In this document: piece by piece, positions 36,294 to 42,570 of the stretch
How positions within the stretch are numbered: position 1 is the stretch's first letter
Layout: each line of letters opens with the position of its first letter
Source of the DNA: Treponema sp. CETP13
GTDB taxonomy: Bacteria > Spirochaetota > Spirochaetia > Treponematales > Treponemataceae
Assembly (NCBI GenBank): GCA_001885315.1
Contig: MLPZ01000003.1
Location: 124,001 to 188,000, forward strand
Direction: 5' to 3'
Length of the DNA: 64,000 nt
The notes under the pieces: model-generated
Databases searched by the model: none
What the model was told of the DNA's origin: nothing
Seen by the model: only the letters and a program-made list of their open reading frames with translations
Position numbers and translations under genes: made by a program

Positions 36294-37013
36294 CTAGAAA
36301 GAATTTTTTTCTGTTCCAGCTATTTTACTTACATACATTTTTCGAGCTAAATAGACAAAAGGGGTGTCACACAAACTTGTAACTATGTAAATCACATAGG
36401 TTGCAAGTGTTATTGACCAAACAGTTTTTACATCATACACCCCGCCAAAGGCTCCCCAAGTAAAAATTAACGTATTAATTAATTGAGAAATGAGTGTGGA
36501 GCCATTGTTTCGTAGCCATAAAAATTTGCTCGAACTTCCTGATTTTTCTTTAGTAAAATTCCACCATTTATGATATGCCCAGACATCGAAAGATTCAGAT
36601 ATTGCGTAAGCTACAAGACCTGCAATCATGACTCGCGGTGTATTAGAAAAAATAGTTTGCATAGATGGCATTGCAAAATCATTTGAACTTGGTACATATT
36701 GTAGCCAATACTGGCTTAGAATAATAAAGACAACAGAAGTTATACAACCGACTTTTACCGCCCGTCCAGCTTCTTTTTTACCATATATTTCACTTAAAAT
36801 ATCGGTAACCAAAAAACTTGAAGCAAAAAGAACATTGCCCAAAGTTTGTTCAACACCAAACGCTACTATTAGTATAAGCACTTCGATATTTGCTGTTATG
36901 GTAGCAATGACTGTCCAAGTAAACAGTCCCAATTTTCCGATAAGACGGAAAAGAACAAGAACGCCACCGTAACATACGAATAGCGACATTATGAGTAGTA
37001 ACTCATTTTTCAT
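36294..37013 (-). CDS. yhhQ: Queuosine precursor transporter (YhhQ/VUT family)
   Basis: The product is a 239-residue polytopic membrane protein with about six to seven helices. The family motif LVTDILSEIYGKKEAGRAVKVG (opening about 67) and the SQLINTLIFTWGAFGG segment mark the VUT/YhhQ family, which imports queuine or preQ bases for tRNA modification. AAGGAAG precedes the ATG. It lies downstream of the purine permease in the same direction but is separated from it by a tandem hairpin repeat. Confidence 0.88.
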   Translation of the reverse strand: MKNELLLIMSLFVCYGGVLVLFRLIGKLGLFTWTVIATITANIEVLILIVAFGVEQTLGNVLFASSFLVTDILSEIYGKKEAGRAVKVGCITSVVFIILSQYWLQYVPSSNDFAMPSMQTIFSNTPRVMIAGLVAYAISESFDVWAYHKWWNFTKEKSGSSSKFLWLRNNGSTLISQLINTLIFTWGAFGGVYDVKTVWSITLATYVIYIVTSLCDTPFVYLARKMYVSKIAGTEKNSF

Positions 37014-37053
37014 CTAACACTTCCTTAGTTTTGTTTAAAGTCAGGCGGATCTC

Positions 37054-37202
37054 GAACTGACTTATTTTTTTTATCTGTGTGACAGTTTGTTTGCAAACTG
37101 TCGTGGAAGTTGCAACGCAACTTCCACAGAACTGACTTATTTTTTTATCTGCGTGACAGTTTGTTTACAAACTGTCGTGGAAGTTGCAACGCAACTTCCA
37201 CA
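37054..37202. repeat. Tandem double-hairpin repeat, two units of about 75 bases
   Basis: Two head-to-tail copies (37054-37128 and 37129-37202) differ by a few bases and one T. Each begins GAACTGACTTATT and holds two perfect hairpins back to back: GACAGTTTG/CAAACTGTC with a four-base loop (37081-37102, 37155-37176) and GTGGAAGTTGC/GCAACTTCCAC with loop AAC (37103-37127, 37177-37201). The element fills most of the gap between the purine permease and the queuosine transporter. Confidence 0.9.
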
Positions 37203-37224
37203 GAACTCTCTCTTTTATATATTT

Positions 37225-38514
37225 TTATGCAAAGATAATGCGTAAAATAAAGATTACAAAGAGAACCCATGTAATAACAGGAATTTGTTTTGCCTTTTTA
37301 GTAAAGACTTTCATCACAACGTACGTAATAATTCCCCATACGATACCTTCTGCAATTGAATATGCAAGTGGCATCATAATAATTGCCATAAAAGCAGGAA
37401 TTCCTTCTGTAGGATCTTTAAAATCTATATCTATAACAGCTTGCATCATAAAGAATCCAACAAGGATTAATGCTGGAGCTGTAGCAGCACCTGGTATAAG
37501 TAAAAAGATAGGGCTTAGAACAAGTGCAAGTAAAAACATAACACCGGTTGTAAGAGATGTAAGACCGGTACGACCACCAGCAGCAACACCTGCAGAACTT
37601 TCGACATATGTTGTTACAGTTGAAGTACCTAAACAAGCACCAGCAACAGTACCAATAGCATCTGAAAGTAGAGCTTGTTTTACCCGTGGGATATCACCGT
37701 TTTTGTCTTCTAAATGTGCTTCGTGAGAAACACCTACTAAAGTACCAACAGTATCAAAAATATCTACAAAAAAGAATGTAAAGAATACGGTAAAAAATTG
37801 TAATGTAAAAATATGACTAAAATCAAAATGAAACCATAAAGGAGCTGAAGGAGCAGCAAAAGGAGCCCAGTTTTCTGGAATTGTTGTTACACCAAAAGGA
37901 ATACCAATAATAGTTGTTACAAGAATACCAATAAGAATAGATCCAGGGACTTTTAATGCATATAAAACAGCAGTAATAGCAAGACCCAAAAGCGCTACTA
38001 AAGCAGTTCCAGAATTAACAGTTCCAAGAGAAACAACAGTTGCATCATTTGCAACAATAATTCCAGCCCCTTGTAAACCAATAAAAGCTATAAATAAACC
38101 AATACCTACGGCAACAGCTTTTTTGAGATTTTCTGGAATAGCCTTTATAATTGCTTCTCTAACATTAAAGAAAGACAAGATAATAAATACAATACCTTCA
38201 ACAAATACAGCTGTTAAAGCCATTTCTATACTGGCACCCATACCAAGCACAACAGTAAACGCAAAAAAAGCATTTAGTCCCATACCTGGAGCCAAAGCAA
38301 AAGGTAAGTTTGCACTAAATGCCATTACTAATGTAGCTATTGCAGCAGAGAGTGCTGTCGCTGTAAATACACTGCTAGCATTCATTCCGGCTGCACTAAG
38401 AAGCCCAGGGTTAACCGCAAGTATATAAGCCATTGTTAAAAAGGTGGTAAGACCGGCAACAATTTCTTTACGAACTGTTGTACCTCGTTCTTCAAGTTTA
38501 AATACTTTATTCAT
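37225..38514 (-). CDS. NCS2-family purine permease (guanine/hypoxanthine or adenine type)
   Basis: The product is about 429 residues of the AzgA-like branch of the nucleobase transporters. The opening TVRKEIVAGLTTFLTMAYILAVNP, the LAPGMGLNAFFAF motif (about 74) and DIFDTVGTLVGVS (about 252) are characteristic. About 12-14 membrane segments are seen. It imports purine bases with protons. GGAGGATATT before the second in-frame ATG decides the start. I looked for a purine riboswitch upstream and saw none. It shares purine supply logic with purB and purH in this window but is not next to them. Confidence 0.92.
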   Translation of the reverse strand: MNKVFKLEERGTTVRKEIVAGLTTFLTMAYILAVNPGLLSAAGMNASSVFTATALSAAIATLVMAFSANLPFALAPGMGLNAFFAFTVVLGMGASIEMALTAVFVEGIVFIILSFFNVREAIIKAIPENLKKAVAVGIGLFIAFIGLQGAGIIVANDATVVSLGTVNSGTALVALLGLAITAVLYALKVPGSILIGILVTTIIGIPFGVTTIPENWAPFAAPSAPLWFHFDFSHIFTLQFFTVFFTFFFVDIFDTVGTLVGVSHEAHLEDKNGDIPRVKQALLSDAIGTVAGACLGTSTVTTYVESSAGVAAGGRTGLTSLTTGVMFLLALVLSPIFLLIPGAATAPALILVGFFMMQAVIDIDFKDPTEGIPAFMAIIMMPLAYSIAEGIVWGIITYVVMKVFTKKAKQIPVITWVLFVIFILRIIFA

Positions 38515-38615
38515 AATATCCTCCGTAAGAATTATTGAAAAAAGCATTGTATCACTCAAAAGTCATAATAGGCAATACTTGCAATAAAAAAAATTAAAAC
38601 TGCAAATATTACTAC

Positions 38616-40472
38616 TTAAATCTTAAACCCACTCACTTTTTCTCCTAATTCATTTACACTTTCCCTATTTTTATTAGAGACTTTTATCGTATTTTTAAGA
38701 GCAAGATCTACATTTTCTGCACCCTGATTAATTTTAAGCATAGCTACATTAATTTTATTGGTAACTTTGTTAAGAGTATCCATTTGATCTACTATTTTTT
38801 TACTACCAGAAAGCATTTCTACAGAACTGTCGTGAACAGAAATAGTAATATCATTAATGGTTTGCATAGCTGTCAGTACCTGGCCACTACCTGCAGATTG
38901 CTCATCCATTGCTGATTTTATGACATCCTCTTGATTTTTTACATTGTTCGAAAGTTCGAATATAGTATCAAATTGATTTTGCACATCTTCTGTACTCTCG
39001 GAGATAGCTTTTATTGAACTTTCTAAGCCTTTTAAACTTTCCGAGATAGCTTTCCCTTGTGTATCAGAATCTTCTGCAAGCTTTCTAATTTCATCGGCTA
39101 CAACAGCAAACCCTTTTCCTGCCTCGCCTGCATGCGCCGCCTCAATTGCAGCATTCATAGCTAATAAATTTGTCTGAGTCGCAATATTTTGTATAACTTC
39201 GGTGGCTTCTATAAGACCTGCAGAATCCTGCATAACTTTAGAAGCTATAGTTACAGACTCTTCTACTTTGTTTTTGCCTATTTCTGAAGCTTTACTTAAA
39301 TTATCAACATTTGCAGTATTTTTACCAAGGATATCTGTCACAGAACGAATATTTGCTACCATTTCTTCTACTGCTGCAGAAGACTGCGAAACACTTGTAG
39401 ATTGCGATTCTATTTGAGTATTTAATTGTTCTATTCTGTTTTGAATATCCATAACCGTAGAATAAGTTTTATCAACGGCTGAAGACTGATTAACAACATC
39501 ACCTTGTATTAATGATATATCATTAATTACTTCTTTAATGATACTTTCAGCATCATTTATTTCTTTTTCTAGCTTTTGGGCAACTTCTTCTGATATATTT
39601 GAAGTCTTTAAAATTTTCTTTAGTAAATCCCTATTAGAATGGATAAAAACATTAAGTTGATTTATCAATAAACCAAATTCATCTCGTGAAACAACTTGAA
39701 CATCATCCATACTAAAATCTCTATGGGCAAAAGAATCTGTTATTTCAACAGTTTCTAAAAGTCTTTCTGAAGAACTTTTTGACTGTAGATAAAAGGCTAC
39801 CATTGCAAAGAAAAGTCCTACAAGCATTGTAGGGAAGGCATGAAACCACATAACTCCAAGATAAGGAGCCCCTCTAGAAGCAGAAAACGTTGCTCCCACT
39901 GTACACAGCGAGATTCCACTCGAACTAAAAAAAGCAACTATTACAGAACGAGCTACCTGATTTAACGCTATATATTCTTTTTCTAACGGAAGCCATTTTA
40001 ACCATGGTTCATATTTTTTTATCCATAAAATATAGAACAACAAAGAAAGCAAAAATAAAGCCCCAAGAGCCATTACCCATATTGTTTGAATAGAAATATC
40101 AAAACCATTAGCAACAGCCGCGCTTTTTAGAGTATTAGGTAAAAAAAGCATAAGCAAAATAGGAAATCCAATGGATGCAGTAGGATATAACATTGCGCTT
40201 TTTGATGCTGTTACAAAAGTATCCTTAGTACCATCATAACTAGTAATTTTTTTTATAAAAATAGTACTAACTACAATACAAATAAGTACTGTTACAAGGA
40301 CATGCAACAAATATTGCCAAGAAAAAAGAAAAGTAACAACTTGTGAAAAACTAAAAACTTTATTATAAGAAACAAGTATCCAAAAATAAAAATGACAAGA
40401 AATATAAATAAGTAAATTTAATACCAATATAAATTTAGGCATCTTTGGAATACTCAATTTTTCGCTACTCAT
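38616..40472 (-). CDS. Methyl-accepting chemotaxis protein with six-helix membrane sensor
   Basis: The product has 618 residues. The N-terminal third (about 1-245) has six hydrophobic segments (around 14-36, 48-70, 90-110, 128-152, 172-195 and 208-230) and no large periplasmic loop. No HAMP domain is obvious. A signalling coiled-coil follows, with the highly conserved tip [20 protein letters not shown] and [18 protein letters not shown] (about 415-455). The protein relays signals to CheA/CheW and so to the periplasmic flagella. No CheR-docking pentapeptide ends it. AGGAG is six bases before the ATG. It is a tandem paralogue of the next gene. Confidence 0.92.
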
Positions 40473-40545: not shown

Positions 40546-42402
40546 CTAAACCTTAAATTTATGAACTTCAACACCTAATTTTATTACACTTTGTGCATTT
40601 TCTTTTGACACATCTTTTGTATTATTTAAGGCATCATTAATACGCTCAGCCCCTTTATCAATCTGTAAGACAGCCTCATTAACCTTATTAGTTACATCTG
40701 CAAGAACATCCATTTCAGAAACAATTTCTTTACTTCCCGCAAGCATCTCAGTTGAGCTATCTCGAACAGATACCGTAATGTCACTAATATTTTGCATCGC
40801 TTGTAAAACCTGTCCACTCCCTGCAGATTGTTCATCCATTGCAGATTTTATGACATCTTCTTGATTTTTTACAGTATTAGTCAATTCAAAAATAGTATCA
40901 AATTGATTTTGCACTTCTCCTGTTGTAGATACAATTGCAGAAATAGAGGCTTCTAATTCTTTTAAACTACTAGAAATCGTTTGACCTTGATTATTTGAAT
41001 CTTCTGCAAGCTTTCTTATTTCATCAGCAACAACTGCAAACCCTTTTCCTGCCTCGCCTGCATGAGCCGCTTCTATTGCAGCATTCATAGCCAATAAATT
41101 TGTCTGAGTTGCAATATTTTGTATAACTTCGGTTGCTTCGATAAGACCTGCAGAATCCTGCATTACTCGAGAAGCTACTGTTACTGCATCATTGACCTTG
41201 CCTTGTCCAAGCTCAGATGCCTTCCCTAAATCTGTTACTGTAATTGCATTTTTTGACAAAATATCTGATACAGAACGTATATTGGCAACCATTTCTTCTA
41301 CGGCAGCAGAAGACTGCGAAACACTCGCAGATTGAGATTCAATTTGTGAATTAAGCTTTTCTATTCGCTGTTGAATTTGTAAAACAGTTGAATGTGCTTC
41401 CTCTACTCCTGCTGATTGATTTATTACTTCATCTTTTATATCAGCTATAGAAGTTATCATTTTTTTTATCACTGTTTCGGCATTGGTAATTTCATTTTCT
41501 AATTTTTTAGCGACAGCTTCCGAAACATTTTCTGTTTCTAATATATCTTTTAACAGCGTTTTTGTAGAATCTACAAAAATATTCACCTGTTTTGTTAATA
41601 TTCCTACTTCATCTCGAGTTACTATGGCCAATTCATCCATAGAGAAATCTCTTTGTGAAAGAAGTTCTGTATTATCAACAACCGCTTCAAGCGCATCTGC
41701 TGCTGCTTTTGATTGTAATACAAAATCATATACAGCAAAAATAATACCAATAATCGCAGTAGGGATTACATGCCAGAACATAACTTCGGAAAAAGGGACA
41801 GACTGTATTACCAAATACATTGCAGTTATAGTACAAAAAACTGCACCACAAACACTAATAAGCGCAATTAAAGAAGACCTTTTAACAAAACTTAATGCAA
41901 TATTGTTTTTATCAAGAGGAACATACTGTACCCATATTTCATATTCATGTAACCAATGTATATAAAAAACAGGCGACACAAGAGAAAACACACCTATAGC
42001 AGCTGCCCAAAGAGGAAAAGCTAAAAACTTGCTTCCGTTAAGTTTGCCCAAGGCAACTATCAATAGGGCTGTAAAAATCATAGAAAGAATCGAAAAAGCA
42101 AGTCCCATTAATGGGAAATATTTTACCGCTTTATTAACTGTATTAAAAGTTTCTGCACTACCGTCATATTCACTGATTCTCTTACCAAAAGACCAACTAA
42201 ATAAAAAAGCAATACCAATAAAAACAATAACAAAAAGTATATATTGCCAAGATAAAAAATAATCAATTATTTCTGAAGATTGAAGAAGCTTATTGTATGT
42301 TATTAAAACAACAAAAAAGACTTGACAAGCAACAAAAGATACAACATTCAACACAACCAATCTTGTTGGCATTGTTGGCATTTTAATTTTTTTATTTTGC
42401 AT
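40546..42402 (-). CDS. Methyl-accepting chemotaxis protein with six-helix membrane sensor (paralogue)
   Basis: The product has 618 residues and the same layout as its downstream neighbour. A six-helix N-terminal membrane region (about 1-245) opens [16 protein letters not shown], compared with [16 protein letters not shown] in the neighbour. The coiled-coil signalling domain has a near-identical tip. The membrane parts have drifted far more than the tips, so the two probably sense different cues, perhaps within the membrane or at short loops. AGGAG followed by six bases sets the ATG at 42402; an in-frame TTG two codons earlier overlaps the spacer. The 73-base gap to the neighbour suggests possible co-transcription. 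Confidence 0.92.
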
Positions 42403-42570
42403 GGACAACTCCTAAATTTATATAAAAATCATTTTTAAATACCTGAAACCTTAATAAAATCTCAGATTTCTTATAATTATTATAAATCACAACTTAGGTT
42501 AACACAATATTAAAGCTTTGTTTTCAAACTTTTTCTACATGTCTATGGAAGAAAATTTATTAACAAAATA

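Follow-up and report, generated by a model that had tools for sequence, protein, structure and literature searches.

The tandem array at 37054-37207 of the window (the whole 64,000-nucleotide stretch of Treponema sp. CETP13 DNA that was analysed) is, on balance, best explained as a reduced TD-like (REP-like) treponemal double-hairpin repeat, located between a permease gene and a preQ1-riboswitch leader and duplicated once in place; we hold this reading to be likely, with some reserve. The array probably represents a REP-like repeat copied locally, not a new regulator.

Results

Anatomy of the array and its surroundings

The array comprises 2.1 copies with 96% matches according to TRF, which, together with a stem search, bears out the first-pass annotation of a tandem 75-base element made of two back-to-back hairpins (Table 1). 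The 9-bp and 11-bp hairpins, H2 and H1, are perfect and, as had been stated, directly adjoin, with zero bases between them in each unit. The two copies differ in three places, namely a T in a T-run, a linker base and a base of the H2 loop, while the stems are unchanged. Thus, the earlier observation that the hairpin arms are identical and the differences lie outside the stems stands, but the selection for structure that had been read from it does not follow, since stem positions make up 40 of the 75 in the unit and all three differences would miss the stems by chance with p ~0.10. The pattern is a hint of selection, not evidence for it.

Perfect stems were counted in the window and in 30 Markov shuffles. 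Twelve stems of at least 9 bp were found (versus a mean of 3.0 in the shuffles), as well as four of at least 11 bp (versus 0.2) and two adjacent hairpin pairs (versus an average of 0.0 per shuffle). The array RNA is predicted to be very stable, folding well below its shuffles (z -8.5). The tandem unit on its own is probably ordinary.

The position of the array between two base-transport genes, also proposed earlier, was confirmed by domain searches (PF00860 for the permease, PF02592 and TIGR00697 for the transporter). Along the minus strand, the permease gene is followed by the array, the preQ1-I riboswitch and the transporter gene, in that order. The named records closest to the transporter (58-67% identity) come mostly from MAGs that bear the label Lachnospiraceae or Clostridia, which hints at either cross-phylum transfer or mislabelled bins. 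Beyond the permease gene, 38616-40472 and 40546-42408 are adjacent chemotaxis-receptor-type genes that resemble tandem paralogues (the Pfam scan covered the first gene only).

Table 1. Features of the permease-transporter intergenic region and its flanks (window coordinates).
Feature	Position	Strand	Size, support or remark
Queuosine precursor transporter (yhhQ/COG1738 type)	36294..37013	-	PF02592 5.8e-46; TIGR00697 3.7e-51
Shine-Dalgarno-like AAGGAAG	37020..37026	-	6 bases from ATG; overlaps aptamer 3' tail; putative role
preQ1-I riboswitch aptamer, transporter gene leader	37021..37063	-	RF00522 and relatives' model
Aptamer P1, 3' strand	37038..37044	-	
Aptamer P1, 5' strand, within repeat copy 1	37057..37063	-	
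Repeat copy 1	37054..37128		75 bases
Hairpin H2, copy 1	37081..37102		9 bp, 4-base loop; arms found family-wide
Hairpin H1, copy 1	37103..37127		11 bp, 3-base loop
Repeat copy 2	37129..37202		74 bases
Spare P1 5' strand, within repeat copy 2	37132..37138	-	sequence
Hairpin H2, copy 2	37155..37176		18-base core same as in g15 genomes G090, G014, G064, G092
Hairpin H1, copy 2	37177..37201		11 bp, 3-base loop
GAACT, partial third copy	37203..37207		5 bases; both copies begin with GAACT (junction microhomology)
Nucleobase permease family protein, upstream gene, same strand as transporter	37225..38559	-	PF00860 3.1e-50

A preQ1-I riboswitch adjoins the array

Sequence and covariation together identify a preQ1-I riboswitch directly next to the array, a feature that the first-pass annotation did not mention. 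The segment is the top RF00522 match of the genome, with a score of 24.3 bits, below the Rfam gathering cut-off of 39. A model built from the aptamers of relatives, with the window excluded, scored 45.4 bits (E 2.1e-11), and the next match in 364 kb of own sequence reached 14.2. This model, R2, contains 18 of 20 aptamers and omits L065, which nearly duplicates L060, and L067, in which there is a long insertion. The segment shares with the preQ1-I class the P1 helix, the conserved loop, the A-rich tail and a ribosome-binding site, with a queuosine-precursor transporter gene downstream, and departs from the class in falling under the Rfam cut-off. One P1 pair is U-A in the window versus A-U in most relatives, a compensatory change: among 19 sequences, both sides of this pair are changed with pairing kept in four, and pairing is broken in one. 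The array itself is a neighbour of the riboswitch and has only the P1 5' strand in common with it.

A similar aptamer was found near the transporter gene in 20 of the 26 relatives read. At five of these 20 (L062, L063, L066, L068 and L069) it lies ~800-950 bases upstream, with other sequence intervening. Aptamers of this type also precede queuosine-transporter genes in related genomes and in records named Lachnospiraceae or Clostridia. A literature search on preQ1 in Treponema yielded general riboswitch reviews.

The riboswitch appears to control the importer of a vitamin-like base. Because the ribosome-binding site lies within the 3' tail of the aptamer, close to the ATG, control is suggested to be at the level of translation, by analogy with other preQ1 switches, for which passages of PMC11625349 describe translational control. 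At the relatives' loci L059, L060, L061 and L065, a hairpin-plus-T-run sequence, recognised by eye, follows the aptamer instead.

The H2 hairpin recurs in related treponemes

The window's genome (21 contigs, 2.54 Mb) contains the H1/H2 element at this locus only; a repeat or an operator dispersed in that genome was rejected on this ground. Patterns derived from H2 were searched in 274 genomes of the family. The exact 18-base pattern occurs at 17 places in eight genomes (reversed control, 0), and the 14-base arm pattern at 150 places in 53 genomes (reversed control, five places in five genomes); the counts of 17 and 150 include the window's own two places, and the totals of 150 and five were added by hand. 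The first-pass annotation had held that a lack of other copies, along with no effect on transcription, would be consistent with a neutral local duplication. The lack of copies is indeed seen in the window's own genome but not in related treponemes, where the H2 arms recur. Some six-frame ORF of at least 100 aa encloses 17 of 40 H2 places.

The back-to-back layout recurs as well. A second perfect hairpin lies at most 3 bases away at 10 of the 13 exact H2 places whose flanks were read, but at only 16 of 78 non-own H2 contexts, a number that covers only perfect stems of at least 8 bp, in a set that includes three viral contigs. Partner hairpins vary in sequence from place to place, with A-run/T-run arms in G144 and G288, and for H1 no clear relatives were found beyond its own locus. 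At L172:1501 (G183), a GGAAGTTCGC-type hairpin adjoins an H2 hairpin and looks H1-like by eye, possibly the sole relative of H1.

Tandem arrays that contain H2 have periods of 71, 75, 111, 152 and 159; for example, G108 contains 3.4 copies of a 71-base unit, and G201 has 4.0 copies of a 75-base unit. Seventy-six non-own H2 places in 32 genomes include six clusters with copies within 200 bases of one another.

Two other structures were recorded. One back-to-back hairpin pair of different sequences, L124:8570-8615, lies between convergent genes of the own genome and is the sole such pair in a 300-kb sample. At L128:5328-5878, a 177-base unit is repeated in tandem 3.1 times, the copies being 97% alike; each copy carries an 11-bp A-run/T-run hairpin, and a tRNA lies at the end of the repeat. 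Phage origin of the element was rejected, as the seven viral contigs with the exact H2 pattern were judged, by estimate and not from a computed expectation, to be about what chance would give in a large collection.

Relation to TD-1/TD-2 and to REP repeats

The TD-1 (RF03155) and TD-2 (RF03162) families of Rfam clan CL00124, which are tied to Treponema denticola, are treponemal and dispersed and have several strong hairpins in series, in all of which they resemble the repeat studied here. The term treponeme, as used here for the related genomes, is based on these families, on the first-pass annotation and on L061, a record named Treponema among the relatives of the transporter. Their covariance models have no match in the window, even at E<=10. 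The TD-2 model contains an AGUUU..AAACU hairpin and, 2 bases on, a long hairpin; in the window, an AGUUUG..CAAACU hairpin stands directly beside a second strong hairpin, as in the TD-1/TD-2 layout. The 18-base core of H2 is located inside TD-1 matches of g15 genomes, and adjacent TD-2 places are close together in several genomes, another likeness to the array. When 20 loci were scanned with Rfam, 12 had a TD-1 or TD-2 match at E<=0.01, nine of them over the cut-off. TD-2 matches at E<=1 were present in 66 of the 118 genomes searched, the own genome included, and over the cut-off in 31, versus none in 14 control genomes; the own genome has one, below the cut-off (E 0.41). The differences are that the window lacks the first hairpin of TD-2 and the large terminal hairpin of TD-1, each unit holding H2 and H1 only with no further TD hairpins, and that the element occupies a single locus in its genome, whereas TD-1 and TD-2 occur in multiple copies. 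The array is therefore TD-like in layout and in H2 sequence and is not filed as a TD member.

For R1, a double-hairpin model, 15 contexts that have a partner hairpin nearby were selected from the 78 non-own H2 contexts. In 364 kb of own sequence, the two copies of the array were its best full-length matches (19.3 and 18.3 bits; next locus, 14.7), with an E value against the window of only 0.01. Since partner hairpins differ in sequence, the R1 consensus holds the H2 stem alone, and the search consequently tests H2 and sequence, not both stems.

The g15 genomes also contain, at L180-L197, TD-1 elements of ~120 bases whose stems vary yet remain perfectly paired; these occur a short way upstream of start codons, with ribosome-binding-site-like ends, as if inserted there. 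A literature search on treponemal palindromic, intergenic and interspersed repeats and on TD-1/TD-2 turned up no paper that we recognised as dealing with these repeats. They are not described in passages of PMC1590033 and PMC8040213, and a term search of the main text of PMC2864571, reportedly the source of TD-1/TD-2, found neither name.

REP/BIME elements are intergenic palindromes that occur in pairs and are able to build tandem arrays. The array is likewise made of intergenic paired palindromes in tandem; unlike REP/BIME elements with their RAYT (Y1) transposase, it is not dispersed in its genome, and the search for PF01797 (the REP/RAYT-type Y1 transposase) gave no match in that genome (G000), by which a Y1-transposase REP was ruled out there. 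PF01797 was over its cut-off in three of eight genomes searched. The REP-like character suggested by the first-pass annotation thus holds at the level of the family, where H2 arms recur, commonly beside a second hairpin and at times in tandem, but not for the own genome.

Origin of the duplication

GAACT is present at both edges of the unit as a 5-base microhomology. One GAACT site lies inside the first P1 strand of the riboswitch, where the repeat unit ends, and the other just before the end of the permease gene. Copying between the two sites would produce the observed array, and the same duplication would account for the spare P1 strand in copy 2. A search for an empty orthologous site found none, the transporter leaders of other genomes having no shared neighbourhood.

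The closest competitor of the preferred reading holds that an unrelated palindrome, present by chance and with no kin among treponemal repeats, was duplicated locally and neutrally, for which the microhomology would suffice. The single locus in the genome, the GAACT at the unit edges, the chance-like pattern of differences and the lack of a match to the Rfam TD models all agree with it. We nevertheless consider it unlikely, because the 14 arm bases of H2 are far above the reversed control in the family and both the back-to-back and the tandem layouts are found again in other genomes.

Transcription signals and possible roles of the hairpins

More doubtful is a role of the hairpins as a functional part of transporter regulation (an insulator, an mRNA processing site or a promoter-linked operator) that would work with the riboswitch, two copies being stronger than one. 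Array and aptamer lie directly side by side and have the P1 5' strand in common, and the fold of the array is very stable. However, visual reading of the transporter leaders of 15 + 11 relatives revealed no such hairpin pair, the palindromes stand beside no other gene of the own genome, there are no promoter-like sites in 36950-37300, and in the predicted fold P1 is built from the local strand, the spare strand not being used for it. The A-rich stretch after H2 was likewise rejected as a promoter, its hexamers being too weak.

Very improbable is the view that H2 is a decayed preQ1 aptamer and the array a degenerate tandem riboswitch. H2 has the same GACAG/CUGUC ends with a 12-base interior and agrees by eye with the L066 aptamer stem-loop at 17 of 22 bases, but the aptamer model gives its two copies only 5.3 and 4.9 bits, versus 45.4 for the real aptamer, the conserved tail of the aptamer is unmatched, and the hairpin is found at many loci that have no riboswitch.

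An intrinsic terminator of the permease gene, acting in one or both directions, could be imagined from the strong hairpins, their intergenic position and the A-run/T-run arms of some partner hairpins elsewhere (L096, L100), but it is hardly credible, being contradicted by a sequence that has no terminator-like site on either strand in 36950-37300, no GC-rich stem with an immediate T-run at the array and no T-run after the stems on the coding strand. The transcription barrier put forward by the first-pass annotation accordingly fails as an intrinsic terminator. Its small RNA finds no backing either: no Rfam family reaches its cut-off in the array region, so a known Rfam RNA at the repeat was rejected, and no promoter-like site accompanies it.

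Discussion

The reading that we favour, a TD-like double-hairpin repeat doubled in place, implies the following course of events. One copy would have arrived or arisen in the space between the permease and transporter genes, and slippage or recombination between the two GAACT sites, one of them in the first P1 strand, would then have doubled the unit. The hairpins are presumably transcribed with the permease message, the transporter leader or both, and would have no role beyond that of generic intercistronic stem-loops, which may shield the 3' end of the permease message and uncouple its decay from that of the transporter message. The transporter would be regulated by the riboswitch and not by the hairpins, bound preQ1 causing the ribosome-binding site to be hidden. 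Joint action of the array and the riboswitch in regulation is possible but unsupported.

A bolder picture, which we rate as improbable, is that treponemes harbour a family of modular hairpin pairs, wider than TD-1/TD-2 and with no evident transposase of its own, in which H2 is kept, the partner is swapped and growth occurs in tandem. Here, such growth would have run into a riboswitch leader, each copy thereby bringing a spare P1 first strand, which would be a decoy that possibly tunes the switch.

The favoured reading connects what had seemed a stand-alone curiosity with a class of treponemal hairpin repeats that is large and has received little study. It also suggests that TD-1 and TD-2 belong to a wider modular family that also makes tandem arrays. 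The adjoining aptamer, a copy missed by the Rfam cut-off, points to preQ1-I riboswitches as elements that precede the queuosine-transporter genes of treponemes.
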